From positions 1-30,093 of the IMG/VR virus record IMGVR_UViG_3300038701_002844: DNA of 30,093 nt; one strand, 5' to 3'. The position numbers were made by a program, and so were the translations under genes. Source of the DNA: a virus. Below are positions 6,013 to 21,480 of the stretch, piece by piece; position 1 is the stretch's first letter, and each line of letters begins with the position of its first letter. The notes under the pieces were generated by a model, which was not told where the DNA came from, did no database searches, and worked only from the letters and a program-made list of their open reading frames with translations.

Positions 6013-6708
6013 TTAAGCGGGAGTTGAGAGGTGGGAGGGGGAGGAGATCGCCTTGCGAGGCGGCAGCTTGAGAGCAGCGCGGGACTGGTCGGATAGCCAG
6101 CTCCCTTCCCAGTGATGGATCGCGAGCGAATCCGCAGGCGGCACGCCGGGACGTTCCCAGGGAGCGAAGGGGCAAGTGATCTGGTAAGGGAGCAAATCGA
6201 CGCCGCCGGAGTCTTTCGCGACCGATTCCAGCCACGGGCCGGAGAAGGTCAGAGCGAGAAGTTGCCCAAAGGAGGATCGCTCGATGCGGTCGATGACTGC
6301 CGCCATTTGGCTTGATCCTTCCTCGGCATAGATCCAGCCGTTTTGAGAGGTCAGCCCCCAGGGATGGCCCGGGGTGTGCCAGTGGGCTCCGGACGCCCCG
6401 AGGGCGAATTCCTTACCGGCGAGAACTTTTGAAAAGTTACCCAGGCATTCCATGTCCATGTCGGCATACATGCCGCCGAATTCAGCGAGCACGACCAGGC
6501 GCAGGAGATCGGCGCGGGTCGCATTGCCCAGGCAAAGAGGAGCGAGCTTGCGGTAAAGCGGGAATTGTTCGGCGTTCTGGTCGGTCCAGATTTTATATTC
6601 CCAGTCGCCATGGTGGAAGCGCCAGCCTTTCGACCACTTGACGAATTCCGGCGGCTTCGGATTGTCGCCGAGCCAGATTTGATGAATGATTTTCGTTACG
6701 TTGTTCAT
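6013..6708 (-). CDS. Family-32-type glycosyltransferase (DXD)
   Basis: The 231-aa protein has the hallmarks of the GT32 glycosyltransferases (DXD sugar-binding region): N-terminal IIHQIWLG (about 7-14), the ADLLRLVVLAEFGGMYADMD block (67-86) with metal-binding D83-x-D85, and a late HHWEGSW motif. Such enzymes transfer a sugar from a nucleotide-sugar donor, using a divalent metal held by the DXD. It has no signal peptide or membrane segment and should act in the cytoplasm. It lies inside the head-tail operon, overlapping the gp36-like stop by ATGA. This suggests it modifies a virion protein or phage-induced surface component; the acceptor is unknown. A glycosyltransferase at this place is not part of the classical Mu gene set. 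Confidence 0.85.
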   Translation of the reverse strand: MNNVTKIIHQIWLGDNPKPPEFVKWSKGWRFHHGDWEYKIWTDQNAEQFPLYRKLAPLCLGNATRADLLRLVVLAEFGGMYADMDMECLGNFSKVLAGKEFALGASGAHWHTPGHPWGLTSQNGWIYAEEGSSQMAAVIDRIERSSFGQLLALTFSGPWLESVAKDSGGVDLLPYQITCPFAPWERPGVPPADSLAIHHWEGSWLSDQSRAALKLPPRKAISSPSHLSTPA

Positions 6709-8553: not shown

Positions 8554-9000
8554 TTAGGCTTGAGCCTGGCGAAATTCGTCTTCGGTCAGCCCGAGCTGGG
8601 CCATGATCTTCCTGTCATCAGCAGAGAGCGCGGCGGACTTGTCGCCCGGCTTCTCCTGAGGGGACTGGCGAGAGGTCGGAACCTCCCCGGCGGGAAGCTT
8701 GTCAACGATGGCGCGCAGAGTGCCGATGTCAGTGACATCGATCTGTTCGGCGGACAGCGGAATCACCTTTCCCTGAAGCACGGCCCCTTGGACGATGTTC
8801 GAGCGCTCCATCGCATCGAGGCGGGCGGACATGGCGGCGACCTCGCCCTCGGGCGCGTCCTTCTTTGGAGAGGGCTTCTCCATGTGTTTGGCAGCCGCTG
8901 CCGCGATTGCCTCGTCGCTCACCTTATCTTCGCCGTCCTCGGCCTTGAGACCGAGGATTGAAATGAGAAGGTCGCGGAATTTATCAGTGTCTTTATCCAT
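8554..9000 (-). CDS. Possible internal-start scaffold product (Mu Z-like)
   Basis: An in-frame ATG at 9000 begins MDKDTDKFRDLLISILG and would yield a 148-aa protein of only the scaffold half. Mu and lambda both make separate scaffold from an internal start in the protease gene, so this is a reasonable proposal. No Shine-Dalgarno is visible, but nearly no gene here has one, so its absence says little. Confidence 0.4.
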   Translation of the reverse strand: MDKDTDKFRDLLISILGLKAEDGEDKVSDEAIAAAAAKHMEKPSPKKDAPEGEVAAMSARLDAMERSNIVQGAVLQGKVIPLSAEQIDVTDIGTLRAIVDKLPAGEVPTSRQSPQEKPGDKSAALSADDRKIMAQLGLTEDEFRQAQA

Positions 9001-9573
9001 GGTTTGAGGGGAGTCTGGTTTGTCTTGAGTTTGGATTTGAGAGGGAGTTTGCGCGGAGAGCGCGGCGACAGCCTCTTCGAAGGTTAGCCCGGCGACATCG
9101 CCAGTCTGAGTCAATGCGACAGAGTCGATGAGGAGAAGGTTGCCGTCTGAGTCGAAACGAGCGACCGGCGAAACGTCGGAATAGGAGAGCGCATGCTCGC
9201 GCCCGTTCGGCGTATAGGCTAGCGAGGTCATGAAGACGCCTTCGCCTTCGACGATTTCAATCTGACCGTGCGCGGCGTTATGACGCGGATCCTCTTTATA
9301 ACGAGGGTGACCAGGGACGCTTTGATGTTCGTAGTCCAGGACGACGGTATCGCGGGCGAATCTCTTTTGATTCGCAGAGAGACATTTCAGTGACTTCTCG
9401 CCAACGACGATTTTCGCGCCCGTGGTTCGTCCGAGATTTTCACCCCAATCGAGGATTTTGATCCGCTTGGGAAGCTCCCCTTCGACAGCCTCGCCAGCCC
9501 GGAAGGCGTGCGCCGCGCCAAGCACGGCGTGGCCGGGGAGAGCTGAAGGAGTTTTGACGTTTTCGTCGGACAT
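8554..9573 (-). CDS. I: Prohead protease with scaffold region, Mu I-like
   Basis: The 339-aa protein matches Mu protein I. Residues about 30-170 form the protease-like domain, with RIKILDWGENLGR, TVVLDYEHQS (the conserved DYEHQ), a PRHNAAHGQIE segment and YTPNGREHALSYSDVSPVA. Residues about 190-339 are helical, charged and scaffold-like. It cuts itself and other head proteins during maturation while the C-terminal part shapes the prohead. A Met at 9000 opens a 148-aa product covering just the C-terminal part, as Mu makes scaffold Z from an internal start within I. A 28-bp element that recurs before the lysis arm lies just upstream. Confidence 0.88.
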   Translation of the reverse strand: MSDENVKTPSALPGHAVLGAAHAFRAGEAVEGELPKRIKILDWGENLGRTTGAKIVVGEKSLKCLSANQKRFARDTVVLDYEHQSVPGHPRYKEDPRHNAAHGQIEIVEGEGVFMTSLAYTPNGREHALSYSDVSPVARFDSDGNLLLIDSVALTQTGDVAGLTFEEAVAALSAQTPSQIQTQDKPDSPQTMDKDTDKFRDLLISILGLKAEDGEDKVSDEAIAAAAAKHMEKPSPKKDAPEGEVAAMSARLDAMERSNIVQGAVLQGKVIPLSAEQIDVTDIGTLRAIVDKLPAGEVPTSRQSPQEKPGDKSAALSADDRKIMAQLGLTEDEFRQAQA

Positions 9574-9603
9574 CGGGCATACCTTGCCCGGAATCCCGAC
9601 TTA

Positions 9604-9631
9604 CCACAAAACGCCGTGGGAGCGATGGAGG
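9604..9631 (-). promoter_or_regulatory. 28-bp element upstream of protease gene, candidate late promoter
   Basis: Read on the minus strand this contains CCTCCATCGCTCCCAC, one variable base, then GCGTTTTG, one variable base and GG. It matches 21098-21124 at 26 of 28 positions (the second copy begins at 21097). It sits in the 69-bp gap between the gp31-like and protease genes, ending about 30 bp before the protease ATG. In Mu the late promoter P_I lies before gene I, so this is a plausible activator-dependent late promoter. Confidence 0.6.
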
Positions 9632-9642
9632 GGCGCGGATGA

Positions 9643-10083
9643 TTACAATCCGTGAACCCGCAGGCTGGCCGAAAGTGCCCGGTTGACGGCGAGGCTGCCT
9701 CGCGGAGTCAGCTTGCGGCGCAGAAAGGGCAGATAGGGCCGCGCAGGGATTTTCGAGGCCTTATTCCGCCCGGCTTTGCCGCCAAGCTGATGGATGGCAG
9801 CATACTCGCGATCGCTACCGACCGTCACCACTGAATTCGTGGTGCGGGTGATTCGAATCGACTTCCGCAGCATCGTCGATTTCTGAAGGAGATTGTGAGG
9901 AAGGTCATCCTTGCGGGGGGCCCAGGCGCGAGCACGCAGCGAGGGGTCGGTGAAGGCGCGTTTTCCCAGGGAAACCACGGCCCGGCCCATCGCGTTCAAA
10001 TGCGGCTTACGATCCTTCGTGGCCAGAGCCTTGCGCCGGAGATCGGGAGCGATGCCATCGCGGATTTTACGAAAGGTGGCCAT
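9643..10083 (-). CDS. Virion morphogenesis protein, Mu gp31/gpG-like
   Basis: The product, 146 aa from the ATG at 10083, has the family's C-terminal signature: a REYAAIHQLGG segment followed by KIPARPYLPFL (in Mu gpG-type proteins, IHxfGg then iPaRpfLgl). The N-terminal half is basic and helical. The family acts in head completion and head-tail joining. The frame is open to a GTG at 10107, but the ATG at 10083 overlaps the stop of a 29-codon upstream ORF as TAATG, which favours it. It follows the F-like head protein gene, as in Mu. Confidence 0.85.
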   Translation of the reverse strand: MATFRKIRDGIAPDLRRKALATKDRKPHLNAMGRAVVSLGKRAFTDPSLRARAWAPRKDDLPHNLLQKSTMLRKSIRITRTTNSVVTVGSDREYAAIHQLGGKAGRNKASKIPARPYLPFLRRKLTPRGSLAVNRALSASLRVHGL

Positions 10084-10172
10084 TACAGAAAAGTTTCCAC
10101 GATCCACTTAATCAACCAGAGCAATGGAAGAAGCACCATGCCAAGAATGAGATATTGAGGAGCGCGGAACAT
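10083..10172 (-). CDS. 29-aa single-pass membrane microprotein
   Basis: This ORF encodes a 29-residue peptide beginning MFRAPQYLILGMVLLPLLW; residues 7-21 are almost all hydrophobic, enough for one membrane segment, followed by KW and a short tail. It lies between two head genes, 11 bp after one stop, and its stop overlaps the next start as TAATG, which suggests translation coupling. It has no recognised family. A role in lysis timing or membrane-associated assembly would be speculation; it could also be only a coupling leader for the next gene. Confidence 0.5.
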   Translation of the reverse strand: MFRAPQYLILGMVLLPLLWLIKWIVETFL

Positions 10173-10183
10173 GGAGGCGGTTT

Positions 10184-10438
10184 CTAAGATTCGAAATCTG
10201 CGGCAGGCTCGTCGGCGGTTTCCGACTTGGTGATTTCATACTGGAATGATCCTTGAAATGCTCGCTTTAAAATTTCCCGAGTTGGGATGTGGTGACCAGC
10301 ATGGAGATCGACCTGGCGTTGCAGAAGCTCGCCGAGGGCTCGCGGGGCGCTTCCGGTTGACTCGATCTGGTGAGATCCATCGAGCGCGAAGCTGTGATCT
10401 TCCAGGCGAAATTCGATTCGTTCGTTTCCGGGGTTCAT
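10184..10438 (-). CDS. Hypothetical small protein between gp30 and gp31
   Basis: The 84-aa product is not recognised. It starts with a charged beta-like segment (RIEFRLEDHSFALDG), includes LGELLQRQVDLHAGHHIPTREILKRA, and ends acidic. Its start overlaps the stop of the F-like head protein (ATGA, 10435-10438). Its place in the head operon suggests a morphogenesis role. Confidence 0.65.
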   Translation of the reverse strand: MNPGNERIEFRLEDHSFALDGSHQIESTGSAPRALGELLQRQVDLHAGHHIPTREILKRAFQGSFQYEITKSETADEPAADFES

Positions 10439-12033
10439 GATTGATCTTTGATCTGAAGAGTTGAGATGACGAAGTCGAAATATTCCGGGTCTTCTTTGGC
10501 GAATGCTGCCGGGTTACGGTCGAGCCGCTCGATGCCCATGGTGAGAAGTTCGGTGGCGCGCCCACCATAGTCTTTTCCGCAATAGTGATCGCCGCCGAGG
10601 TTTTCCCAGCCGTCTTCGAAGGTGACTTCGCCGGGGCCGTATCCGAGGCCAGTCAAGTCCCGCAGGCGCTGGGGCTTCTCCCCGGCGGCCCGCTTGTCCA
10701 GAAAGGCGAGGGACTTCTTAAGCACGGAAGCGGTTTGTTGCTCGGTGCCGTGAGTGATTTCGTGAGCCATTACCGAGGCGGAGGTTTTGCTACCGACATA
10801 GATGGCCCGCTCGGAACCGAGATGGAAAGCGCGGCCTCGGTTTGCTCTCACGGTAAGCTGGGGCAGAAAGTCCGGATGCGTGTAGCGCTCGCAAATCGCG
10901 GCCCCTTCGCGAGCTTTCTTCATGATGGGAGCGCTCGTCTTTTTGGTCTTCCCCAGGCGATCCACGTAGGTTCCCTGGAGAGACATTTTACCGCGTTTGG
11001 CGGCGGGGATTTCAACCACTTTTCGAGCTTCCTCGATCTTGCGGCTCACCTCATCCATGAGGCGATGACGGTCTTCGAGTGTGAGAGCGCGCTGGCTGAG
11101 GTCAACGGCTTCGATTTGCAGCTGGATTTTAGCCAACTTGAGACGAGCGGCGGCGAGGTCCAGGGGGGGAATCGGATTAGAAGGGAGAGTTGGAAGCTTT
11201 TTGACAGTCGGCTCTCGTTCCAGGAGCCAGTCCATGATGGTACCGATTTCGCCGATTTCGGTTTCGGCGGCCCAGGCTTCGAAGGCTTCGCGGACGTCGG
11301 GAGTCCAACGCTTTTTGATGTCGTCGTAGGGCAGACTGAGGTCGCGGACATTGTTCTCGTAGTTCCCGCCTTTCTCCTTGGCGGTGCGGACATCGACGAT
11401 GACGTTGGGGCCTCGGTTGAGGTTGCCGAGTTCGAGCTGTGTCAGGGCCGCGCCTTCGAGGACTCGCTTGTTCTCCGGATTACGGCGGCGGTCGCGGGCC
11501 TTCTCTTCTTCGGCGTCGATCTCGGTCAGTTCGACGACGTCGCAACGGCAATTCCATTCCCAGGGCGGAGTGTGGTTGAGCCAAAAGGGATGATCGGCGG
11601 GAAGGACAATGCCATTGAGCGCGGCATGAGTGGGCCGGACGACATGGTCGTCGGTGGAGAGGTATTGACGGAAGGGAAAGACGTCGATGAGAGCGTCTTG
11701 CGCCTGGGCCTGGGCGGAGGCATAGGCGGAGAATCCATGATGCCGCATGAGGATGGAGGCGCGGCGATTGGCAGACTCCAGGGACATGTGCGGGGAGAGG
11801 TCGGCGACGACGTCTTTCTTGACCTCATCCCAGTCGGCACCACGGGGCAACTCGGCGATGCGGTCGCGGAGGGATTGCAGGACGTCGTGCGATTCGATGC
11901 CGGGGACGACGAAGGCACGCGCCTGGATTTCCTCCGGCATGCGGTCGAAGATGTCGCGGGTAACGATGGCCTTGCCCTCGATGAGCTTGGCCGCTTCGTC
12001 GTGCGGGACGGGAGTGAGGTGGAAGTTGATCAT
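10435..12033 (-). CDS. F: Mu F-like head protein (gp30) fused to a zincin-like domain
   Basis: The 532-aa protein has two parts. Residues about 50-170 are the Mu F-like minor head domain, ending in the typical VRPTHAALNG, HPFW and WNCRCDV series (about 130-166). The C-terminal part contains SVMAHEITHG, with H424-E-x-x-H428-G, the zinc-metallopeptidase signature, and a downstream ATELL where E495 could be the third ligand. Between them lies a helical linker (about 285-350). F-like proteins sit at the portal vertex and may be injected with the DNA, so a fused peptidase could work in head maturation or in the new host. The motif is seen in the sequence; peptidase activity is inferred. Its stop overlaps the next gene by ATGA. 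Confidence 0.88.
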   Translation of the reverse strand: MINFHLTPVPHDEAAKLIEGKAIVTRDIFDRMPEEIQARAFVVPGIESHDVLQSLRDRIAELPRGADWDEVKKDVVADLSPHMSLESANRRASILMRHHGFSAYASAQAQAQDALIDVFPFRQYLSTDDHVVRPTHAALNGIVLPADHPFWLNHTPPWEWNCRCDVVELTEIDAEEEKARDRRRNPENKRVLEGAALTQLELGNLNRGPNVIVDVRTAKEKGGNYENNVRDLSLPYDDIKKRWTPDVREAFEAWAAETEIGEIGTIMDWLLEREPTVKKLPTLPSNPIPPLDLAAARLKLAKIQLQIEAVDLSQRALTLEDRHRLMDEVSRKIEEARKVVEIPAAKRGKMSLQGTYVDRLGKTKKTSAPIMKKAREGAAICERYTHPDFLPQLTVRANRGRAFHLGSERAIYVGSKTSASVMAHEITHGTEQQTASVLKKSLAFLDKRAAGEKPQRLRDLTGLGYGPGEVTFEDGWENLGGDHYCGKDYGGRATELLTMGIERLDRNPAAFAKEDPEYFDFVISTLQIKDQS

Positions 12034-12290
12034 GGTTCGTAATCGTTTAGGAAGTAGTCTTCAGGAAGCTCGACGGGTGGAAGGCCTTTCTTTTTGGCGA
12101 GCTGACAGGCTTCCCAGTGGCCCCGGCATGAGGTCTCGCCAGCGCCGTACAAATCATCGAGGTGACACGGGAACTCCTGGTTTGAGATTGAGAGGGCGTG
12201 AGAGAGTTCCTCATCGGGAAGTTTAGAGACTTTCCCCATGTAGGGGCATTCACGACACTTCCGGAAGCGACGTTTGAGAGGTTCGGTCAT
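12030..12290 (-). CDS. Cys-rich, probable zinc-binding small protein
   Basis: The 86-aa protein has a CRECPYMG knuckle (C12, C15), then PCH (C42, H43) and CRGHWEAC (C55, H58, C62). This CxxCP...CH...CxGH spacing resembles the DUF6283 type of phage proteins and suggests one bound zinc. The role is unknown. It starts the block that leads into the head genes and overlaps the F-like start by ATGA. Confidence 0.7.
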   Translation of the reverse strand: MTEPLKRRFRKCRECPYMGKVSKLPDEELSHALSISNQEFPCHLDDLYGAGETSCRGHWEACQLAKKKGLPPVELPEDYFLNDYEP

Positions 12291-12304
12291 GACTTACAAG
12301 CGAG

Positions 12305-12475
12305 CTAGGAATTCGTGACGGTTGTGTCAGAAAAGAGGCGAGAGGAGAACGCGGCGACGAGAATCCAGGGGATGGCGGCGAGGAACCATGCGGGGTCGCC
12401 GTCGATTCCGCGACCGAGCATAATCCCCGCGCCGAGGGTGTAGGCAAATTGCCGGATTTTGATTTCACCAGACAT
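12305..12475 (-). CDS. 56-aa small membrane protein
   Basis: The ORF encodes 56 residues with a glycine-rich stretch (FAYTLGAGIMLGRG) and a clear hydrophobic segment (WFLAAIPWILVAAF, about 30-43). It would be a one- or two-pass membrane protein. It overlaps the upstream gene's last 11 bases (ATG at 12475, upstream stop at 12465), the usual packing in this operon, and is followed by a small zinc-binding gene. A second frame over the same bases is Ser/Pro-rich and looks like a shadow. The function is unknown; a lysis-related role is only a possibility. Confidence 0.65.
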   Translation of the reverse strand: MSGEIKIRQFAYTLGAGIMLGRGIDGDPAWFLAAIPWILVAAFSSRLFSDTTVTNS

Positions 12476-12923
12476 AGCTTTCCCTCCAGGCGTCGAGTTT
12501 TTCGGAAGTCCAGAATCCCCCCTCTTCGTCGCGGCTGTTTTTAGTAGCGTCGATGTGCATCATGAGGGAGTCGATGGAGACCAGCATGGTGTGGGGGGCG
12601 ATCTGGATGTAGTCGACAAATCCGGCGTAGCAGAGACGCCGCATGGTGGTGTACGATAAACCCTCGATTTTGAGAGCTTTGGCGATGGTCATGGTCTCGG
12701 TGAGCCGGACGTAGCCGAGTTGATCGCCTGCGGGTTCGAGGGCGAATTCGCCGTCTTGGCCGGTGACAACTTTGGCGATGGTGTAAACGGGGAGGTCGGT
12801 TTCCTCGCCTACGACAAATTGACCAGGGGCGACTTCGGCCCAGTCGGATTCTCCGGAGGGTGGAGGGGCGGTGTAGGTGGCCTCCATGCCGGGTAATTCG
12901 GCGAAATCCAAATTTGCGCTCAT
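12465..12923 (-). CDS. Putative winged-helix DNA-binding protein
   Basis: The 152-aa product has an acidic N-terminal half with beta segments (PGQFVVGEETDLPVYTIAKVV) and a C-terminal part that looks like an excisionase or MerR-type wing helix: VRLTETMTIAKALKIEGLSYTTMRRLCYAGFVDYI (about 71-106). The helix-turn-helix reading is from pattern alone. It follows the DnaA-like gene with an ATGA overlap, so the two may form a regulatory pair at the early-to-late border of the operon. Direct family membership is not recognised. Confidence 0.55.
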   Translation of the reverse strand: MSANLDFAELPGMEATYTAPPPSGESDWAEVAPGQFVVGEETDLPVYTIAKVVTGQDGEFALEPAGDQLGYVRLTETMTIAKALKIEGLSYTTMRRLCYAGFVDYIQIAPHTMLVSIDSLMMHIDATKNSRDEEGGFWTSEKLDAWRESYVW

Positions 12924-13399
12924 TTGCGATCTGAGGGGGGGTTGGGTTTCTGGACCTCATGCCACGTTCTTTCCGCGATAGGCTCTCTTACCCTGCGGCG
13001 AAGTGCGGCGGCGGGCATATTTGAGAGCCGCCGTTGATACGCTTGGTCGATGACCTGCCATTGCTGGCCTTCGATGGTGTTTTCGCGAATCGCGGCCTGG
13101 ATGCGGCGGACCCAGTGGATGACGGTACCGTGGTGGAGATAGAAGACGCGACCAATTTCGGTGAGGGTGCGCTCGGTGTGCCTCCGCATGAGCCAGAGGG
13201 CGGTGCCACGGGCCTTGGCGAGGTGGGCTTCGCGGGTGCCGCTGCGGAGGGCACTCTCGGTGACACTGAAGGAGGCGCAGACTTGCTCGACGGCGGGCCG
13301 AAACCATTCGATGGGATGGCCGCGCCGGATGGCGTGCAGGCGGGCTTCGATCTCGGTGGAGAGTTCGCTGAGGGTGAAGTTTTCAAGGGCGGGGTTCAT
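12920..13399 (-). CDS. DnaA domain-IV-like DNA-binding protein
   Basis: The 159-aa protein resembles only the C-terminal DNA-binding domain of DnaA. Residues about 30-108 contain FSVTESALRSGTREAHLAKARGTALWLMRRHT, then LTEIGRVFYLHHGTVIH. The AR..A.WL.R..T...L.EIG..F...H.TVIH pattern is the DnaA signature. No AAA+ part is present. It lies between early and late genes where Mu encodes Mor and C, whose fold is also helix-turn-helix, so it may be the switch to late expression. A role in replication is the alternative. The start overlaps the upstream stop by ATGA. Confidence 0.75.
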   Translation of the reverse strand: MNPALENFTLSELSTEIEARLHAIRRGHPIEWFRPAVEQVCASFSVTESALRSGTREAHLAKARGTALWLMRRHTERTLTEIGRVFYLHHGTVIHWVRRIQAAIRENTIEGQQWQVIDQAYQRRLSNMPAAALRRRVREPIAERTWHEVQKPNPPSDRK

Positions 13400-14217
13400 T
13401 GGTCGCCTTTCTGCTTGCGGTTGCGGTTGCGGGTTTTGCCTCTCCCCTCCTTCGCGGCGATGCGGTTCTTGATGGTATGGCAGAGCTGTTCCAGGGCGAG
13501 GGCCGGGAGGGTGATGAGGCTCTCGAAGTCGCTGAGGGTGTTTTTGGGATTCTTACGCTTGGCGACAGTCATGACGTAGGCCGCGCCGATGGTCCCGGCG
13601 TTCTCGTGGCCGCTCTCCTGGTGGTCTTTGAGGAGTCTGACCAGGCGGTCGATGAGTTGCTCGCGGTTCTCGATGGTGTCCTTGGGAGCGCGGGATTGCT
13701 TGCCGGTGACGAGGCTTGTGGGTTCATCGAAGGGCTTGCCGGCGAGGGCGAGGAATTCGGCGCGGAGGGGGCGGAAGTCATCGTTTCGCAGTTCCTGGAA
13801 GGAGCGCTTGCCGGTGATGCGGTGGCAGACGTTGGCGCGGAAGTTGGTGAAACGTTCGGTCTTGGTCTTGCCGGTCTCTTCGACGAGGTCGTAGGCTTCG
13901 AGGTGGTCGAATGCTTGGCGGGCGGTGATGGCCATGGCCTGAATCTGCTTCCTGGAAAGCGGCGGATTACTGGTGGTCTGCGGCTTGGCGGCGGACTTGC
14001 GGCGGGGGCGCTGTTTCCAGGACTCGCCTGCGAGGGGCTCGACAGTTGGTTCGAGCGGCTGGGCCTTGCCATCGAAGCGCCAGCCCATGGCGAGGCAGAG
14101 TTCTTTGGCGAGTTCCTCGTTGGTGGCGTCGAACTGATGGGACTTGGCACCGGCGTCTTCGGGCTGGCCGTCCTTTGGCGGGATGGTGGCCGTGAAGGTG
14201 ATCTGGGGGATGCTCAT
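13396..14217 (-). CDS. Hypothetical middle gene, possible gp16/GemA-related
   Basis: The 273-aa protein has a basic linker (about 70-85) and a helical centre, TARQAFDHLEAYDLVEETGKTKTERF and CHRITGKRSFQELRNDDFRPLRAEF. The TGK-x-S...L block recalls Mu gp16-type (DUF1018) proteins, but the match is weak and the protein is longer. The C-terminus is very basic (RGKTRNRNRKQKGDQ), which could bind nucleic acid. It comes directly before the DnaA-like gene with ATGA overlap, which fits a middle regulatory gene. Confidence 0.55.
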   Translation of the reverse strand: MSIPQITFTATIPPKDGQPEDAGAKSHQFDATNEELAKELCLAMGWRFDGKAQPLEPTVEPLAGESWKQRPRRKSAAKPQTTSNPPLSRKQIQAMAITARQAFDHLEAYDLVEETGKTKTERFTNFRANVCHRITGKRSFQELRNDDFRPLRAEFLALAGKPFDEPTSLVTGKQSRAPKDTIENREQLIDRLVRLLKDHQESGHENAGTIGAAYVMTVAKRKNPKNTLSDFESLITLPALALEQLCHTIKNRIAAKEGRGKTRNRNRKQKGDQ

Positions 14218-14516
14218 GACTTCGGGAGGGTGTTTTGAATTTCGGCCAGCTTTCGTTTCAGCTTTTTACGCTTCTTGCGCTGGCGCTTGCGTTCCTGGTT
14301 ACGACCCTCCTGGTATGCGTCCTGGACATCATATGGGGTGAAGTCCTGTAAGCGATCCAGTCGTTCCTCGCGGACTTTATCGACGAGGCGCTCGATGGAG
14401 ATGGCGAGGGATTCGAGGATGACTTCGTCGGCGAGGCCCTGGGAACGCTGGTCGCGCAGCCAGAGGTCGAGCTGGCTGGCGATGTTGTCAGTGGTGACGG
14501 GTTCGAAGTAGTTCAT
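14214..14516 (-). CDS. Hypothetical helical protein with basic C-terminus
   Basis: The 100-aa product starts MNYFEPVTTDNIASQLDLW; residues about 20-55 are acidic helix and residues 72-92 are a dense Arg/Lys helix (QERKRQRKKRKKLKRKL). The frame is open upstream to 14735 but that part is Arg/Pro/His-rich shadow of the next gene, so the ATG at 14516 is chosen, two bases after that gene's stop. The basic tail suggests DNA or RNA contact. Family unknown. Confidence 0.65.
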   Translation of the reverse strand: MNYFEPVTTDNIASQLDLWLRDQRSQGLADEVILESLAISIERLVDKVREERLDRLQDFTPYDVQDAYQEGRNQERKRQRKKRKKLKRKLAEIQNTLPKS

Positions 14517-14518
14517 GA

Positions 14519-14812
14519 TTAGCGGGGGCTGATTTTGACGACGGGCGGAGTGGCCCCGAATTCGATGGTTTCGGGCTGCCAGGGCTGGCCGACTGAGACC
14601 ATGGAGGTGGACTGGGTGGCGCAGGCGGTCATGACGGTATTGATGCCGAGGTTGGCGACGAGGGCGCGGGCGCGGGCTTTGGCTTCCTTCGGCGAGGCGG
14701 CAGAGATTTTGACTTTGGCCTTGCGGTTGAGACATTCGGCGACGGGTACGTAGTAGATCTGCTCGCCTTTGGCGGTGTTTTTGATTTTGGGTTTTTCGCT
14801 TGTTGGGTTCAT
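14519..14812 (-). CDS. Hypothetical small protein
   Basis: The 97-aa product is not recognised. It has a basic N-terminus, a stretch AKVKISAASPKEAKARARALVANLG that looks like a small alpha-beta element, and a hydrophilic end. It lies in the run of small middle genes between Gam and the DnaA-like gene. Confidence 0.6.
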   Translation of the reverse strand: MNPTSEKPKIKNTAKGEQIYYVPVAECLNRKAKVKISAASPKEAKARARALVANLGINTVMTACATQSTSMVSVGQPWQPETIEFGATPPVVKISPR

Positions 14813-14837
14813 GGTTTTTGATTGGTTGAGGGTTGGT

Positions 14838-14921
14838 TTAACGTTGGCGGCGCAGGATGGCGGCGAGGAAGATCAGGGTGATGACCAGGACCATGGGGAC
14901 GGATTCGATGATCTTATCCAT
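14838..14921 (-). CDS. 27-aa membrane microprotein overlapping gam
   Basis: The ORF encodes 27 residues: MDKIIESVPM followed by VLVITLIFLAAIL and RRQR. One strongly hydrophobic helix with an Arg-rich end predicts a single membrane pass. Its ATG lies in the last eight bases of gam (ATGGATAA), the same packing as other true genes here. Family and role are unknown. Confidence 0.5.
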   Translation of the reverse strand: MDKIIESVPMVLVITLIFLAAILRRQR

Positions 14922-15498
14922 TGGCGGCCTCCTTATCTGCGACGACGGGAGCGCCGGTTTTGCCGCTGGCGGAGGGGGCGAACTTGAAGGCTTCGTCTTT
15001 GATGACCTCGATACCGAGGGAGCGGAGGAAGGATTGTTCTTCCGGGCCTTGTTCCCAATGCTCGATGATGGCATCCTTGGCGAGACCGGCTTTGACGGTG
15101 GTCAGCTTTTCGGAAAGAGGCTGGTCTTCGATGACCAGGAGGCCGTCGATGACGTCTTGAATTTTGTAGCCTTTCAGGGCTGCGGTGCGGCCTGGGCTTT
15201 GACGAAAGCCGATGGTGTGACCGGCGATTTTCGCGCTTTGCTTTTCACCGAGCACCTGCTTGCGGTTGGCGACGACGTATCGCTGGATGCGGGCGACGAG
15301 TTCCTTGGCTTCTTTCGCCAGGGATTCGGCTTTGATGTCGAGTTCCTCGCGGACAGCGCGGACCTTGCGCTCGACGAGGATTTTGATTTCGTCGTGTTCG
15401 AGCAGGAGGGATTCGGCTTCGGTGACAGCTTCGGTGAGCTGGTCTTCGGATTGGATGACGGCGGACTTGGCGCGGGTTCTTGCGGTGGTGGTATTCAT
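14914..15498 (-). CDS. gam: Gam-like DNA-end-binding host-nuclease inhibitor
   Basis: The 194-aa protein matches Mu Gam: an N-terminal long helix pair (about 18-75) with many Glu and Lys (EHDEIKILVERKVRAVREELDIKAESLAKEAKELVARIQRYV), then the IAGHTIGFRQSPGR strand segment and a C-terminal LGIEVIKDEAFKFAPS ending. Gam dimers are Ku-like, bind double-strand DNA ends and block host exonucleases, guarding the transposing genome. It lies downstream of A and B as in Mu. The start ATG follows a strongly A-rich leader without Shine-Dalgarno. Confidence 0.9.
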   Translation of the reverse strand: MNTTTARTRAKSAVIQSEDQLTEAVTEAESLLLEHDEIKILVERKVRAVREELDIKAESLAKEAKELVARIQRYVVANRKQVLGEKQSAKIAGHTIGFRQSPGRTAALKGYKIQDVIDGLLVIEDQPLSEKLTTVKAGLAKDAIIEHWEQGPEEQSFLRSLGIEVIKDEAFKFAPSASGKTGAPVVADKEAANG

Positions 15499-15519
15499 AA
15501 TTTGTTCTTTTGGTTTTTT

Positions 15520-15846
15520 TTATTCAGGGGCTGGGAGTCCGAGTCGAGGGGCTGGAAGGCCCTTTCTCGCCGGAGGAGTGCGTTTCTTTTTATCGATTTT
15601 GATGTTTGTCTTGATGGTGGTTTCCACTTCGGTCTCGTCGGGATCGACGTATTCGTAAAAGTCGTATTTTTCCGCGTCGGGAAAGTCGGGATCGTCGGCC
15701 AGCCAATGGGTGGAAACTTGGACTGACTTCTGGAGGAGATTGGCCATTCGAGTGGCATCGGCGAGGGATCTGAAATAGTGCTCGCTTCCGTTGTGACTAA
15801 CCTTGTGGAGAGTTACTTTCGGGGTCTGGGCTGTTTTTTTAGGCAT
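15520..15846 (-). CDS. Hypothetical early protein
   Basis: The 108-aa product is not recognised. Residues 1-50 look alpha-beta (VTLHKVSHNGSEHYFRSLADATRMANLLQKS), residues 52-75 are acidic and aromatic (DDPDFPDAEKYDFYEYVDPDE), and the end is Pro-rich and basic. The last 18 bases with the stop region are identical to those of the 5024-5527 gene. It sits between an 81-aa gene and gam in the early block. Confidence 0.6.
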   Translation of the reverse strand: MPKKTAQTPKVTLHKVSHNGSEHYFRSLADATRMANLLQKSVQVSTHWLADDPDFPDAEKYDFYEYVDPDETEVETTIKTNIKIDKKKRTPPARKGLPAPRLGLPAPE

Positions 15847-15851
15847 TGTTT

Positions 15852-16097
15852 TTATTTGCGGAGTTTGGCCATTTTTAGGCGGCGTTCGGTTTGTTTGATG
15901 GTCTCCATTTCGAGACCATGGCGGTAGAGGTAACGGACGGTTGGCTTTGACTGGGTCTCAACGACAAGGATGCGCCCGCCCGATTTTTCGATGAACGCGC
16001 TAATCACCCACCGGAGATCTTCGTCCTGTGGAGAATCGGCGTCGAACGGGCCGGCGAGAACGCGGAACCCTTTGCCTTTTGCTTCGGTGGGAGTCAT
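15852..16097 (-). CDS. Hypothetical early protein
   Basis: The 81-aa product is not recognised. It has a small alpha-beta look (GFRVLAGPFDA, WVISAFIEKSGGRILVVETQS) and a basic helical end (IKQTERRLKMAKLRK). The start overlaps the stop of the ATPase B gene (ATGA, 16094-16097), so it is translated with the transposition genes. Confidence 0.6.
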   Translation of the reverse strand: MTPTEAKGKGFRVLAGPFDADSPQDEDLRWVISAFIEKSGGRILVVETQSKPTVRYLYRHGLEMETIKQTERRLKMAKLRK

Positions 16098-17110
16098 GAG
16101 ATTTCGGCTTGAGCTTGGTTCGCGGCTTGTAAGAGGGTGGCATCATCGGTGTCGGGGCCGGTGATGCCGCCGTCGCGGATGAGGTCGGAGACGCGGCGAA
16201 GGAAGGCCCAGTGACCGGCGTTGGCGGCGAGTTTGACAACCTGGGCGAGGGTGCCTTTTTTCCATTCCCCGCCAGCGAGACGGCGGTTGAGGAATTTGGC
16301 AGCGCCGTCTTGACCTGGGGTGGAGAGTTCGACCTTGGCGAAGAGGCGATTGTGGAAGAGCTGCTTGCTTTCCTCGCTGGCGATGAAACGAAGCTTTCGA
16401 AGAAGGGTGTTCATTCCGGCGAGGATGATGAGCGCTTCGGACCGGTTCAGGATGGTCTTGATGCAGTTGAGAACTTGACCGGTGCAGTGTTGGGCTTCGT
16501 CGATGGCGAGCATGATGCGGCCTCGCTGGTTGATGATTTCGAGAAGCTTGCGGAGGCGACCGGCTGTTGAGACGGGGCGGTGCTTCTCCGGAACGGCGAG
16601 CGCTTCGAGGATATCACCGAGGGCAGCGCGGAGAGATTTCCAAGTTTCGTCTGCCTCGATAACGGTGAGCATGCCAGCGGCGGGGCCTGCTTTGAGGAGT
16701 TCGAGCGAGGTGGTCTTGCCGCTGCCGCTGCCGCCTTCGATGAGGACGAGGCGGTCTTTGCCATGGTGCTGCATGAGGCGGAGGGCGGTCAAACTGACGA
16801 CCTGAGCGGGATCGAGATCGGAATAGAATTCCTCATCAGCACGTTCCTTGGCGTCGGTTTCAAGCGAGGCCAAGACACCTTTGTAATTGACGAGCTGGCT
16901 GGAGATGCTGAGACCACCGAAATCACGCTTGAGGATTTTGCGCCAGGTTTTGTCACTGCCAAGTCCGGGAAGGCGCTTGGTCCAGGCGCGGATACTGGGG
17001 AGCGGCTTGATGCCCTGGCGAATGGCGTCGATGCGCTCGGCGACGGTGACGAGGTCTTCGGCCATGGAATCGGATTGCTGCCGAGGAGAGGTCTCGACGG
17101 ATTTAAGCAT
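16094..17110 (-). CDS. B: AAA+ ATPase, Mu B-like target-DNA-binding protein
   Basis: The 338-aa protein is the MuB counterpart. Walker A GGSGSGKTT lies at 126-134 and Walker B IMLAIDEAQH at 199-208. The N-terminal 80 residues (AERIDAIRQGIKPLPSIRAWTKRL...) look like the small DNA-binding domain seen in MuB-type proteins. MuB forms ATP-dependent filaments on target DNA, chooses the insertion target and stimulates the transposase. The frame is open further upstream to 17374, but that part is Ser/Pro/Arg-rich shadow; the ATG at 17110 overlaps the stop of the 113-aa gene by 8 bp. It follows transposase A, the standard A-B order. Confidence 0.92.
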   Translation of the reverse strand: MLKSVETSPRQQSDSMAEDLVTVAERIDAIRQGIKPLPSIRAWTKRLPGLGSDKTWRKILKRDFGGLSISSQLVNYKGVLASLETDAKERADEEFYSDLDPAQVVSLTALRLMQHHGKDRLVLIEGGSGSGKTTSLELLKAGPAAGMLTVIEADETWKSLRAALGDILEALAVPEKHRPVSTAGRLRKLLEIINQRGRIMLAIDEAQHCTGQVLNCIKTILNRSEALIILAGMNTLLRKLRFIASEESKQLFHNRLFAKVELSTPGQDGAAKFLNRRLAGGEWKKGTLAQVVKLAANAGHWAFLRRVSDLIRDGGITGPDTDDATLLQAANQAQAEIS

Positions 17111-17444
17111 TGGCGGCCTCCTCCCCTGCGGTAGCCATGACGTGGCGGTGACAATGCGGGACGAACTGCTTGCCGGTGCCGTTGAGGTCGGCGACGACGC
17201 AGGCAAGGGATCTCTCGTACTTGCGCTCGATGCGAGCCATGGCGAGGAGTCGGGCCGGGTAGTCCGGGCCGTGACGCTTGGCGAAGAGGGCGAGGCGGAG
17301 ACCGAGGGCTTGCGCGGAGGTCTTGAACCCGGCGGGGGCCATGATGGTGTGAAGTTCCAGGGCGACCTCGTCAATGGTGAGAGCTGCGGAGGAATCGAGG
17401 TCGCCAGGGAGGCCTGGCGGGCGGTGGTGTTTAATGGGTTTCAT
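17103..17444 (-). CDS. Hypothetical protein between A and B
   Basis: The 113-aa product is not recognised. It has a basic start (MKPIKHHRPPGLPGDL), a helical middle (TIDEVALELHTIM, ALGLRLALFAKRHGPDYPARLLAMARIERKYERSL) and a His/Cys-containing end (FVPHCHRHVMATA). The start follows an A-rich leader. It lies between transposase A and ATPase B in an otherwise classic pair and overlaps B, so it is made with them and could adjust transposition. Confidence 0.65.
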   Translation of the reverse strand: MKPIKHHRPPGLPGDLDSSAALTIDEVALELHTIMAPAGFKTSAQALGLRLALFAKRHGPDYPARLLAMARIERKYERSLACVVADLNGTGKQFVPHCHRHVMATAGEEAANA

Positions 17445-17474
17445 CGTTGTTTATTGTTTGGGTTTGAAAGCGGT

Positions 17475-19301
17475 TTAGGCTTCGGAGATTTCGGTTTCGA
17501 GGCGGGCAATCTCGGCGGCGCGGGCCTCGGGGGAGGCGAAGCGAGAGAAGCGGGATGAGGTAGCGGCCTCGGGGGCGACGGGGCGCGGAGATGGGGCCGG
17601 GGCGGGCATAGTCTCGGCGGGGGCCGGGGTTTGGGCTTGGGTTTCGTTGCGCTTGATGGTGCCTGCTTTGGCGGAGTTCCCCTGGCCATCGGCGGCGGCG
17701 ACTTCGCGGGGGCCTTGACCGTTGGCGACGATGGCGCGGAATGATGTCCGCGCCCCTGCCGTGGCCTTGCGGCGGGCGATGAGATGCGGGGAGAGTGCTT
17801 CGGCGGCGCTGAATTGAGGGGCGAGACCATGGCATGGAGCGGCGGTGAAGAGGACTTCGTGCAGACCGAAATGTTCCCGGTTGCGCGGGCCGGTTTCGTT
17901 GTTGACGATGCGGGCACCGAGTTCGGGCCGGGCGGGATCGCAGGCGACGAGCACTTTGTGACCGGTTTCGAGGTGGAGGCCGTCGATGATGCCGTTGACG
18001 GTGAAGTAGAGAGGAGCCCAGCCCGCGCCGGGGTTGATGCGGACCTGACCAGAGCTGACGACTGCCGCCTTTTTGGTGGGGTAGAAATACCAGGCGGAAT
18101 CTTCGGGAAGAGACTTGGTGTGCCAGCCGTGGCGGGCGACGAGGTCGTTTGGCGCAACCCGCTCGTTGAGATGCTCGCGCATGGCCTGGCGGTCGTTGAT
18201 GACGCGGGCGGCGGCTTCGTGCTTGTCCGAGGATTCGTGAATGGAGAGGAAACCGAGTTCGCGGGCGTCGAGGTTGACGTTTCGGGATTGACGGAGGCGC
18301 TTGGCGGCGAGTTCGAACTGGCCACGCTTGCGACCGATGTCGATGCCGGTGTGACCGAGCCAGCGTTGCAGGAAGTTGAAGCCACCTTCGATGATGCTTT
18401 TCGACTTCGACTTGAAGACGTGCTCGACGCGCATGATGTCGCGGAGGTCTCCCCATCGGTCGCCATCGTCGAGTTTGAGGCCATGAACGCCGGATGATTC
18501 CCAGATGCCGCGTTCGAGGCGGAGGAGGCCGGGGAGTCCGTGCGAGCGGACGAGACGCTCGATGAAGCGGAGAACGTCTTCGGCGCGGTAGGCATCGCGC
18601 TCGCGGCCAATATGGTCGAATCCGAGCCAGAGGGAGGCGGCGAGGTCTTTTGCGGCGAGGACCTGGCGGTTGACGTTGACGGTCTTCGACTCGGGGCATT
18701 CGTGCCAGTAAGGTTGATTGGTCGAATAATCGTCGAGTTCCCAGACCATGCCGGGGAGGATCTCGCGTTGCGTTCCGTCTTCGAGCATCTCGAACATGCC
18801 GCGACGGGTGACCATTTCGGTTTGCTGGTGGGATTTTTTGCCCTCGAAGAGCGATCGTTCCTCGTCGGTGACGTGGAAGGCGCGGAGGACAGACCGGGGC
18901 CAGGCGATGCGCTTCCGCTCGGACATGGCCTTCTCTTCGTACCCGCGCATCATCTCGGCGATGGCGGGGCGGACGATGAGTTCGTCGGTGCCGTCGTAGG
19001 TTTTATCGCTACGGATGAAGAACCAGGCGGCGACATCGACGGACTCCTTGGTGAGTCGATACCAGCGGGCGAGATTGGTTTCAGCGGCGTTGAATTCGAG
19101 CTTTCTGGGGCGGCCCGTTTTGGACTGAGTGAGGCGCAGGGCTTCCTCGCAGTCGCCCCCAGACTCTTTAATCTTCTTGAGCCAAGTGTAAACGGTCTGG
19201 CGCGAGCAACCAACCCGGAAGGCGATCTCCTTTGGCGCGACCTTGGCGGCAGCGAGACGCTGGATCTCTTCGAGCTTGGCGAGTGTGAGGGGCTTGGACA
19301 T
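17475..19301 (-). CDS. A: Mu-like DDE transposase A
   Basis: The 608-aa protein has an N-terminal helix-turn-helix (IAFRVGCSRQTVYTWLKKI, about 26-44), a linker, and the retroviral-integrase-type core: WELDDYSTN gives the first acidic residue (D190 or D191), RLERGIW (E263) stands where the second Asp is expected, and SIIEGGFNFLQ gives the closing Glu (E305). A beta-barrel-like part follows (about 425-480, INPGAGWAPLYF..GHKVLVACDP), as in Mu transposase C-terminal domains. The last 80 residues are Ala/Pro/Thr-rich and may carry the B-binding tail. It cuts and joins both phage ends for integration and replicative transposition. It follows the ParB-like gene with a 5-bp gap. Confidence 0.93.
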   Translation of the reverse strand: MSKPLTLAKLEEIQRLAAAKVAPKEIAFRVGCSRQTVYTWLKKIKESGGDCEEALRLTQSKTGRPRKLEFNAAETNLARWYRLTKESVDVAAWFFIRSDKTYDGTDELIVRPAIAEMMRGYEEKAMSERKRIAWPRSVLRAFHVTDEERSLFEGKKSHQQTEMVTRRGMFEMLEDGTQREILPGMVWELDDYSTNQPYWHECPESKTVNVNRQVLAAKDLAASLWLGFDHIGRERDAYRAEDVLRFIERLVRSHGLPGLLRLERGIWESSGVHGLKLDDGDRWGDLRDIMRVEHVFKSKSKSIIEGGFNFLQRWLGHTGIDIGRKRGQFELAAKRLRQSRNVNLDARELGFLSIHESSDKHEAAARVINDRQAMREHLNERVAPNDLVARHGWHTKSLPEDSAWYFYPTKKAAVVSSGQVRINPGAGWAPLYFTVNGIIDGLHLETGHKVLVACDPARPELGARIVNNETGPRNREHFGLHEVLFTAAPCHGLAPQFSAAEALSPHLIARRKATAGARTSFRAIVANGQGPREVAAADGQGNSAKAGTIKRNETQAQTPAPAETMPAPAPSPRPVAPEAATSSRFSRFASPEARAAEIARLETEISEA

Positions 19302-19306
19302 GGCTT

Positions 19307-20236
19307 TTAGGCTTCGCGGTCTTCGAGGATGCCGGAAATGACGACGGCGATCTCGCTGGCGAGTTCTTCGTTTTGGGCGAAGATTTCACGGGCGCAGATT
19401 TCGATGAATTGCTCGCGGTCTTCGCCGGAGAGCTTCGCGAAATGATCGCGAGTGGGAGCGAGAGCGGAACGAAGTCGGAGGGCGGTCTTGCGCTTGACCT
19501 CTTGCCACTTTTGCTCGGGAGTGCGGGACTTTGAGGGCTTGTCTTCGCCGAGAGAGAGGGCGATGACGGCGGAAATGACGCCGCGAAGACTGCTGCGAGG
19601 GGAAAAGATGGAGTCTTCGAATTTGGCCTTGGCCCCTGGGACGAAGACGAGACGACCTTCGGCGTCGCGCTTGCCAGTTTTATGGAAGAAGTGGAAGAGC
19701 TTGACCGCATCCGACATGAGGGCCTTGGAGACACCGACTTTATCGGCGAGAGCGGAGGCGGTTAAGAGTTCACTCAGTGAACTCTTGCCGCGATTCTCTT
19801 CGGTCGCGGCCTCGGGATGGATGAGGGTGGCGAGGTAGGCGATTGCCCCTTTGCTCATGGGCTTGTTGAGCGTGGCGGATGCGATGACACTCTTGGCGTC
19901 GTCTTTCGCGAGGATCTCGACAGGAACCTTGGAGAGTTTGAGTTCCTCGGCAATCTCCAGGCGGTGACGACCATCGAGAACATGGAAGCTCTTGTCCTTG
20001 TCGCCTGCGGAGCAAACCTGAATGGGCTTGCGGATGCCGTTGGCGCGGACGTCTTCACGAAGGGCAGCGAGGTGAGTCTCGATCTCTTCTTTCTTTTCGA
20101 GATGGAGCGCCTTCTTGTCGCCGCCTTTTTTGGCCAACTCCCCTTCCCGCTTGGCGAGCCGGGAGAGCATGCCGGTTTGTTTGAGGAGTGGATGCGGCTT
20201 GAGTCGCGAGACCGCGATGGTGGTAAAATTGTTCAT
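19307..20236 (-). CDS. ParB-like N-terminal domain protein
   Basis: The 309-aa protein has the ParB/sulfiredoxin-type domain: LREDVRANGIRKPIQV followed by SFHVLDGRHRLEIAEEL (about 58-104), with the DGRHR motif. A DNA-binding-like helical part follows, including ALADKVGVSKALMSDAVKLF (about 170-190). No plasmid-type ParA partner is present. As the second gene of the early arm, directly before transposase A, it may bind phage DNA or regulate early steps; this is not proven. Its ATG overlaps the Ner-like stop as TAATG. Confidence 0.82.
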   Translation of the reverse strand: MNNFTTIAVSRLKPHPLLKQTGMLSRLAKREGELAKKGGDKKALHLEKKEEIETHLAALREDVRANGIRKPIQVCSAGDKDKSFHVLDGRHRLEIAEELKLSKVPVEILAKDDAKSVIASATLNKPMSKGAIAYLATLIHPEAATEENRGKSSLSELLTASALADKVGVSKALMSDAVKLFHFFHKTGKRDAEGRLVFVPGAKAKFEDSIFSPRSSLRGVISAVIALSLGEDKPSKSRTPEQKWQEVKRKTALRLRSALAPTRDHFAKLSGEDREQFIEICAREIFAQNEELASEIAVVISGILEDREA

Positions 20237-20433
20237 TAGTTAGACTGAGTTGACTTTCTTACAGGGAGATTCTCGACACGCTCGAGAAGGCTTCGGGATT
20301 GGCGTTCTCCTTTGAGAACACGATGAAGATGGCTGAAATTCACTCCCAGGCGACGAGCGCCAGTTCGTAAGCTCCAACCCTTTTCCTTGAATTTCGCGAG
20401 TTCCTTGGTCATGTGGGGTGCGTCCTTGGTCAT
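20236..20433 (-). CDS. Ner/Cro-like regulator, first gene of left arm
   Basis: The 65-aa product contains a helix-turn-helix: LAKFKEKGWSLRTGARRLGVNFSHLHRVLKGERQSRSLLERV (about 12-53). It is the size of Mu Ner and stands where Ner does, divergent from the repressor and first in the transposition operon. Ner-type proteins damp early and repressor transcription. The frame runs open to 20541 over the repressor gene, but the ATG at 20433 is the likely start; a second ATG at 20412 is possible, since ATGACCAAGGA occurs twice. It overlaps the ParB-like start. Confidence 0.75.
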   Translation of the reverse strand: MTKDAPHMTKELAKFKEKGWSLRTGARRLGVNFSHLHRVLKGERQSRSLLERVENLPVRKSTQSN

Positions 20434-20448
20434 GTTGCCAGCAACCCT

Positions 20449-20464
20449 AATCACGTAAACGCGA
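20449..20464 (+). promoter_or_regulatory. Candidate operator 1 in the divergent control region
   Basis: The 16 bases AATCACGTAAACGCGA lie in the 37-bp gap between the two divergent start codons. An inverse copy with 14/16 identity is at 20501-20516, 52 bp away, about five helical turns. Such a pair fits binding of the repressor or Ner-like protein to both promoters. Binding is inferred. Confidence 0.5.
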
Positions 20465-20470
20465 CACGCA

Positions 20471-20917
20471 ATGAAAAAATCACACAATAGCGATTTTATT
20501 TCGCGCTTACGCGATTTAATGAAGGAGCACAACCTGAGCAATGCGGCGGATCTGGCTCGGCATTGTGATGTAGGGTGGTCAACTGCTAACCAATGGTTGC
20601 AAGGCTCGATCCCTCGAAAGCATTCACTTCACAACCTGGCATCACGTTTACGAGTCACGTCTTCATGGCTTGAAACTGGCGAGGGAAAGCGGGAGCCAGT
20701 GAATAAGGACGCAGTCGAGAGCGGGAGCCTTGCCGAACACGAGGTCGAATTTAACCAAAACCACGACCACCACCGAGCGCTCGTGAAGGCGCTGGTCGAG
20801 AAGATGCGGAAGGTGGAGGTGCTTGACCTGGTGGATGAGCTTCTCCGGAAGTCAAAGACAGCGAAGGCACAAATCTTGATTGACTTATTGCGAGAAAGAG
20901 AGAGGAGAGAGGAATGA
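20471..20917 (+). CDS. XRE-type phage repressor
   Basis: The 148-aa protein has an N-terminal XRE helix-turn-helix (about 9-70: ISRLRDLMKEHNLSNAADLARHCDVGWSTANQWLQGSIPRKHSLHNLASRLRVTSSWLETG). The rest is acidic then helical (ALVKALVEKMRKVEVLDLVDELL) and may form the oligomer contact. There is no LexA-like peptidase domain, so RecA-driven self-cleavage is not expected and induction would differ from lambda. It is divergent from the Ner-like gene with 37 bp between start codons, which matches the lysogeny switch of transposable phages. Confidence 0.85.
   Translation: MKKSHNSDFISRLRDLMKEHNLSNAADLARHCDVGWSTANQWLQGSIPRKHSLHNLASRLRVTSSWLETGEGKREPVNKDAVESGSLAEHEVEFNQNHDHHRALVKALVEKMRKVEVLDLVDELLRKSKTAKAQILIDLLRERERREE
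20501..20516 (-). promoter_or_regulatory. Candidate operator 2, inside the repressor gene start
   Basis: On the minus strand the bases read AATCGCGTAAGCGCGA, differing from operator 1 at two of 16 positions and opposite in direction. It lies in codons 11-16 of the repressor gene, as might be expected when the intergenic gap is too short to hold all binding sites. Confidence 0.45.
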
Positions 20918-21096
20918 AAAACCCAAGCGCAAAAGACCTCCCGATAATGTGGCAAGTGTTCGTCTTGGTGGCGATGGTGGTGGCGTTTTTCGTTTTCGCT
21001 TATGGGGCGAGACCGATTTTGGCGGCTGGCATTTTCTTGGGCGCGATTGTTGCGTCGTGGATCAAGGGGCTGACGATGCGGTCGGCTGGGGATTGA
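20914..21096 (+). CDS. Small two-pass membrane protein after the repressor
   Basis: The 60-aa product has two hydrophobic segments (about 12-31 and 35-50) separated by a short GARP loop. The start overlaps the repressor stop (ATGA) so it is likely made in the lysogen together with the repressor, and a late-promoter-like element follows it. A membrane protein made with the repressor could serve superinfection exclusion; a holin role is less likely given the separation from the lysis operon. Family not recognised. Confidence 0.65.
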   Translation: MKNPSAKDLPIMWQVFVLVAMVVAFFVFAYGARPILAAGIFLGAIVASWIKGLTMRSAGD

Positions 21097-21124
21097 CCTC
21101 CATCGCTCCCACCGCGTTTTGAGG
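21097..21124 (+). promoter_or_regulatory. 28-bp element upstream of lysis-packaging arm, candidate late promoter
   Basis: Starting right after the stop of the 60-aa gene, this holds CCTCCATCGCTCCCAC, one variable base, GCGTTTTG, one variable base and GG. It is 26/28 identical to the element at 9604-9631 before the protease gene. The distance to the next start codon is about 32 bp, against about 30 bp for the other copy. It is in non-coding DNA at the head of a late arm, as expected of a promoter or activator site (compare Mu P_lys). Confidence 0.6.
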
Positions 21125-21156
21125 CGGATTGAAATAGCGTTCATGCTCTCTCTTGC

Positions 21157-21480
21157 ATGGACGCTCTTTTTTTACCTTTGGCAGCTGGCTCGACCGGATC
21201 GAATTCGGGTTGGGCTTGGGCGGCGGGCTTGATTGTGGCGCTTTGCCTGGTTGATCGAGCGATGGCAGCTTGGCGGGGGGCGAAAGTGGAGGATATGGCG
21301 CGAGATTTGAAGCGGGACGGGATTGTGACGCGGTCGGAATTTACCCAGGAGACGGCGCGGATTTTAGAAACGCACAAGGAAACGGAGGCTCGCCTGGAGA
21401 GTCTGGAGCGGTCGTTTGAGCAGGAACTGAGGAGCATTCACCGGACGCTGGGCCGGATCGAGGGGGCTTTGCAAAAGTAG
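21157..21480 (+). CDS. Membrane-anchored coiled-coil protein, Mu gp25/DUF2730-like
   Basis: The 107-aa product has one N-terminal membrane segment (about 18-37, GWAWAAGLIVALCLVDRAMA) followed by a long charged coiled coil (about 48-106) ending LESLERSFEQELRSIHRTLGRIEGALQ. This layout is that of the DUF2730 proteins which precede the packaging genes in Mu-like phages. The role is unknown; it is often placed near lysis genes. It is the first gene after the 28-bp element, so it opens the right late arm. Confidence 0.65.
   Translation: MDALFLPLAAGSTGSNSGWAWAAGLIVALCLVDRAMAAWRGAKVEDMARDLKRDGIVTRSEFTQETARILETHKETEARLESLERSFEQELRSIHRTLGRIEGALQK

Follow-up and report, generated by a model that had tools for sequence, protein, structure and literature searches.

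A paired 28-bp element as the probable late-promoter switch of a Mu-like transposable phage

INTRODUCTION

How does a transposable phage coordinate late genes that are split into two blocks on opposite strands? The question is raised by a viral sequence of 30,093 nucleotides (IMG/VR record IMGVR_UViG_3300038701_002844, positions 1 to 30,093; the whole stretch is called the window below). It belongs to a Mu-like transposable phage whose genes are arranged in two divergent arms, of which the minus-strand one reads ParB-MuA-MuB, further genes and then Y-Z-MuF-G-I-T-tail, and the plus-strand one reads repressor-lysis-terminase-portal. Near-identical short elements stand before gene I on the first arm and before the lysis genes on the second. 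In phage Mu, protein C activates the promoters P_lys, P_I and P_P, and the lys and I promoters share sequence (PMC4461284). A preliminary description of the window proposed that its two elements are the site or promoter of a late activator, likened them to P_I and P_lys, and named two small regulators, of 159 aa (Y) and 152 aa (Z), as those to be tried.

RESULTS

The element pair and the genes behind it

The lysis copy, CCTCCATCGCTCCCACCGCGTTTTGAGG, lies at 21097–21124 (+) and the gene I copy, CCTCCATCGCTCCCACGGCGTTTTGTGG, at 9631–9604 (−); they are identical at 26 of 28 positions. The window contains no third copy at up to three mismatches, and 100 dinucleotide shuffles of its sequence gave 0 copies, so that none is expected by chance. 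Both copies sit in a non-coding gap shortly 3' of the preceding stop codon. The lysis copy directly follows the stop codon of a 60-aa ORF (20914–21096), 32 bp 5' of the ATG (21157) of a 107-aa ORF, and the gene I copy lies between gene G (end 9643) and protease gene I, 30 bp 5' of the gene I ATG (9573). Beyond these 28 bp, the flanking DNA of the two copies is unrelated, and the pair is thus not part of a longer duplicated segment. The pair, its orientations, its non-coding location and its distance of about 30 bp to late-gene start codons are therefore as first described.

Gene I (8554–9573, −) encodes a protease/scaffold protein of the Mu-like_Pro family (PF10123, 4e-27). The 107-aa ORF (21157–21480, +) is the first gene of the lysis arm and shows, by eye, a hydrophobic segment and a coiled coil. 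A gene of this kind, encoding 100–134 aa, comes directly behind the lysis copy of the element in the window and nine relatives; the products have a hydrophobic N-terminal part and mostly end near an LGRLEG-like motif.

Elsewhere in the window, the large terminase (26765–28377, +) consists of two overlapping ORFs of 305 and 232 aa, whose counterparts are matched separately in relatives, with roughly 0.9 kb between the matches in G457. The MuF-like head protein (10435–12033, −) is extended at the C terminus by a segment with a HEITH (HExxH) motif, which suggests a fused metalloprotease domain; several relatives match its N-terminal half only. A 231-aa glycosyltransferase-like ORF with a DxD-type motif seen by eye (6013–6708, −) lies between capsid and tail genes, and a ParB-like gene (19307–20236, −) stands between the divergent repressor region and MuA, a position kept in most relatives.

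Pairs at the same two places in related phages

Relatives were found with capsid T and terminase queries, and whole regions were retrieved and oriented through homology to window genes; viral-contig scans for close relatives with the 159-aa protein, protease and MuF as queries gave no matches. By capsid protein the nearest relatives are prophages in Verrucomicrobiota genomes (53, 46 and 43% identity), followed by a viral contig (42%), and from these prophages we infer a Verrucomicrobiota host for the window phage. Two of the retrieved regions, G457 and G621, are one and the same prophage and were counted once. Relatives that cover both arms keep the layout of the window, except the rearranged G630 and G011.

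Across 15 phages, the window included, most have an element pair at the same two places and in the same orientation, that is 5' of protease gene I and 5' of the orthologous first lysis-arm gene. The element sequence is largely phage-specific, near-identical within a phage and differing between phages. When the two arms were compared for ungapped matches, the window pair came back, together with TGGTCAAAACAGTCCAATAGGTCCGCTGG in G457 (29/29), CCTTCACCCGCCCCACGGCTTTTTG in G013 (25/25) and TCCCACCACGAGCCCCAC[C/G]GCTTTTTGAG in G622 (28/29). Further pairs were obtained in G051, G625 and G106, and weaker ones in G623, G624 and G012, which together with G001, G632 and G631 make up the weak pairs. A restricted search added a weak pair in G631 and one in G630; in the latter, gene I has been relocated away from G, and the element still stands 5' of I. 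No element pair was found in G293, and G011, with its different layout, has no clear one.

We also ranked the best same-orientation arm-to-arm match in 14 phages (window included) after masking tandem repeats. It fell into the gap between G and I in 7 of the 14 and ranked second or third there in 4 more, as against 0 of 14 for the antisense control. This gap usually makes up 1–2% of the late arm; in G106 it takes about 20%, so that the match of this phage counts for less, and the G632 match, one of the seven, is weak. The G051 pair was lost through masking and stands out clearly when the repeats are left unmasked. Conservation in relatives with both gene blocks, on which the preliminary description had made its reading depend, is thus borne out, G630 included.

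A further copy of the element occurs in the tail region of G106, G625, G012 and G624, and in the first three of these a −10 hexamer and start codon follow at matching distances. The contig of the window may end before the region where such a tail-gene copy would lie.

Other repeats were noted in the relatives. G106 (contig C11) has a separate second pair of 40 nt at 19357 and 32366, 5' of the lysis arm and shortly past gene G. Families of short intergenic repeats, tandem or dispersed, occur in L003 (1754–11053) and in the G013 prophage, examples being TTCGACCTTCAGACC and CCCATGACCCATGACC, respectively.

Promoter-like architecture

Clear copies of the element share an arrangement in which a degenerate −35 hexamer at the element end is followed by 16–20 bp, the hexamer [TC]ANNNT, 6–9 bp and the start codon. 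The −35 variants are TTGAGG, TTGTGG and, in G457, CGCTGG; the gene I copy of G051 is an exception, with TTTAAT 10 bp from the start codon. At the lysis copy of the window the putative −35, TTGAGG, is formed by the last 6 bp of the element (21119–21124, +) and the putative −10, CATGCT, lies 9 nt before the ATG (21142–21147, +). At the gene I copy the corresponding candidates are TTGTGG (9604–9609, −) and CAAGGT, 7 nt before the ATG (9581–9586, −), and for both copies the spacing from −35 to −10 is conserved in relatives. The hexamer [TC]ANNNT precedes the start codon by 5–10 nt in 12 of 18 copies versus 2.6 expected from shuffles, and among the other genes of the window in just 6 of 38; the probability calculated for it, 3e-7, is optimistic, since the motif was recognised in the same sequences before scoring. 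Consensus scans found no ordinary sigma-70 promoter, which fits the expectation for activator-dependent promoters. Transcripts from such promoters would be leaderless or nearly so.

Within the elements two direct repeats recur nine bases apart. In the window they read CCAT-N5-CCAC (21100–21112, + in the lysis copy; 9616–9628, − in the gene I copy), and we propose them as half-sites for an activator dimer; elsewhere they are GCCAC/GCCAC (G012 and G625), CCCAC/CCCAC (G051) and three GTC[A/C] (G457). Self-match of the elements is 0.44 at lag 9 versus 0.23–0.31 at lags 5–8 and 10–15, and none of 5000 shuffles reached the lag-9 value at any lag from 7 to 12, a statistic that overstates independence, as several elements are related and the repeat was spotted in the sequences later scored. 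A regular expression that combined repeats, −10 and start codon and was derived from the scored sequences themselves gave 27 hits versus 6.7 expected, with sites found in the window, G013, G622, G012, G625 and G051, and missed the sites in held-out phages.

The lysis start of the window also carries an intrinsic terminator with an 11-bp stem and a T7 run (21136–21173, +). In 5 of 7 phages examined a terminator and the lysis copy overlap, and the left arm of the hairpin lies 5' of the putative start of transcription; with this geometry the terminator would stop read-through from the repressor operon and spare the late transcript. Most gene I copies, that of the window among them, have no terminator.

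Candidate regulators

The gene for Z (12465–12923, −) lies between gemA and MuF and is present in 17 of 17 phages having that region, the window included. In Mu, mor and C occupy the same position. A Mor/C homolog (PF08765) was sought in 10 phage records of the group, some of which may be fragments, with no match at E≤1. Z has no Pfam family, and a diverged homolog in G051 alone passes the HTH_17 cut-off; a PDB sequence search gave no match and a PHROGs search only a sub-threshold Cox-like one. The structural model of Z (mean pLDDT 76) predicts a winged helix at residues 69–129, for which the best solved match is Xis of mycobacteriophage Pukovnik (Z score 4.6, 53 residues, 2.2 Å), with BldC at 4.0 (VIA-align), Z scores of 4–5 being weak. 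BldC protomers bind 9-bp direct repeats, one each, head to tail (PMC5859096), and the Xis-like RdfS activates promoters (PMC11963761). Similarity of elements and similarity of Z were not significantly correlated (rho 0.26, P 0.13), nor above the phylogenetic control. It is position, universality and the predicted fit of fold and site, not covariation, that point to Z as the best activator candidate.

Y (12920–13399, −) overlaps Z through ATGA and has a DnaA domain IV-like helix-turn-helix (Bac_DnaA_C, PF08299, 5e-15); it is a possible co-regulator. Among these phages homologs of Y were identified in the window, G013 and G622 only, those of the two relatives sharing the domain by domain match, and between gemA and Z of G457, G012, G631 and G001 no Y-like ORF was identified. 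We favour Z over Y for this reason, so that of the two regulators named at the outset the 152-aa protein stands as the main candidate and the 159-aa protein recedes.

DISCUSSION

We conclude that the 28-bp element is very probably a shared switch of two separated late-gene blocks. The reading as a late promoter is well supported by the pairs in relatives, the promoter-like spacing, the −10 motif and the near-leaderless starts that these predict, and agrees with the late-activator promoter suggested earlier. We consider it likely that the element is the activator site of two coordinated late promoters, with Z as the probable binder and activator. One promoter would serve the protease-capsid-tail block from gene I, the other the lysis-terminase-portal arm on the opposite strand. 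Z, whose gene lies a short way ahead of the late genes, would bind the two 9-bp direct repeats head to tail and so adjoin the poor −35, and host sigma-70 polymerase would then use the −10 about 17 bp downstream and start transcription at the start codon or just before it. Binding by Z, activation by Z and the transcription start sites are the parts of this scheme that we infer.

Several other explanations have to be weighed against this one. Since Y carries Bac_DnaA_C and forms with Z a tandem with an ATGA overlap, like gafYZ of the Caulobacter gene transfer agent, the element might be the binding site of Y as a GafY/GafA-type activator with Z as partner; GafA of Rhodobacter binds promoters of the main particle cluster and the lysis cassette (PMC6363796), and the elements of the window, G013 and G622, the phages with Y, rank among the most alike. 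However, G457 has a perfect pair and no Y-like ORF identified before Z, the pairs of G012 and G631 are recognisable and likewise have none identified there, and the GafY site is placed about 120 bp 5' of where transcription starts, unlike the element here. We regard this explanation as unlikely; GafYZ homology was dropped as the main answer because Y was not identified in pair-carrying phages. It seems quite unlikely that control is exerted at elongation, with Z (or Y with Z) a promoter-loaded antiterminator like lambda Q, AlpA or GafZ and the element its loading site. The element overlaps or abuts the proposed promoter, a terminator does stand at the lysis start, and GafZ offers a precedent, but in the window and G457 the left arm of the terminator starts upstream of the proposed start, and the hairpin would not form in the late transcript; nor does a terminator accompany most gene I copies.

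The same hairpins raise the idea that the element is an RNA feature or an intrinsic terminator between operons and not a protein site on DNA. It is indeed part of a terminator-like hairpin at the lysis copies of G622, G106 and G625 and at the gene I copy of G013. Yet within one phage the two copies share their primary sequence and not the terminator, and the gene I copy of the window has none, which makes this idea very improbable. Mu-type repressors and transposases bind repeated sites, and the lysis copy does lie downstream of the repressor gene, so a repressor operator or a transposase-binding site could be imagined; the copies, however, are outside the divergent repressor-transposase region, and both are oriented and at a near-fixed distance from late-gene start codons, so that we give this last explanation hardly any chance. 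We thus retain the activator-dependent late promoters as the preferred reading.

The likeness to the late promoters of Mu (P_lys, P_I, P_P and P_mom, driven by C of the Mor/C family) holds at the two places first pointed out, the lysis genes and gene I (PMC4461284). The further tail-gene copy in some relatives may be compared with P_P. At the level of sequence, both systems have the activator site, putative here, just 5' of a non-consensus −35, with a poor −10, and a regulator gene before the late block. Unlike in Mu, a Mor/C homolog was not found in the records searched, the sites contain 9-bp direct repeats, near-leaderless starts are predicted and the lysis-terminase-portal arm is on the opposite strand. 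Judged by these comparisons the window system would work like the Mu late promoters and is not a member of the Mor/C system. With the Xis/BldC/RdfS proteins it would share the predicted winged helix of Z, direct repeats spaced as for BldC and, in RdfS, a known activator, although Z carries additional strands at the N terminus and a helix at the C terminus and belongs to no Pfam family; the literature consulted on these proteins reports no role as phage late activators. The GafA and GafYZ regulators of gene transfer agents resemble it in having a DnaA-like DNA-binding protein beside a second small regulator, and GafA activates both particle and lysis genes, but Y is not universal in these phages, and nothing shown here corresponds to the distant GafY site or the need for IHF in the Caulobacter system.

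It is possible, if somewhat doubtful, that we deal with a new class of late activators in transposable phages of Verrucomicrobiota, in which an Xis/BldC-type winged-helix protein replaces Mu C, binds paired 9-bp direct repeats and drives near-leaderless transcripts at the lys, I and tail positions, diverging together with its sites into a largely private switch for each phage. On the preferred reading, the logic of Mu, one activator for several late promoters at fixed places, recurs in a distant group without the Mu activator. Z and the element make up a concrete candidate pair for late control in Verrucomicrobiota phages, and the natural variants of the element provide material for studies of specificity.
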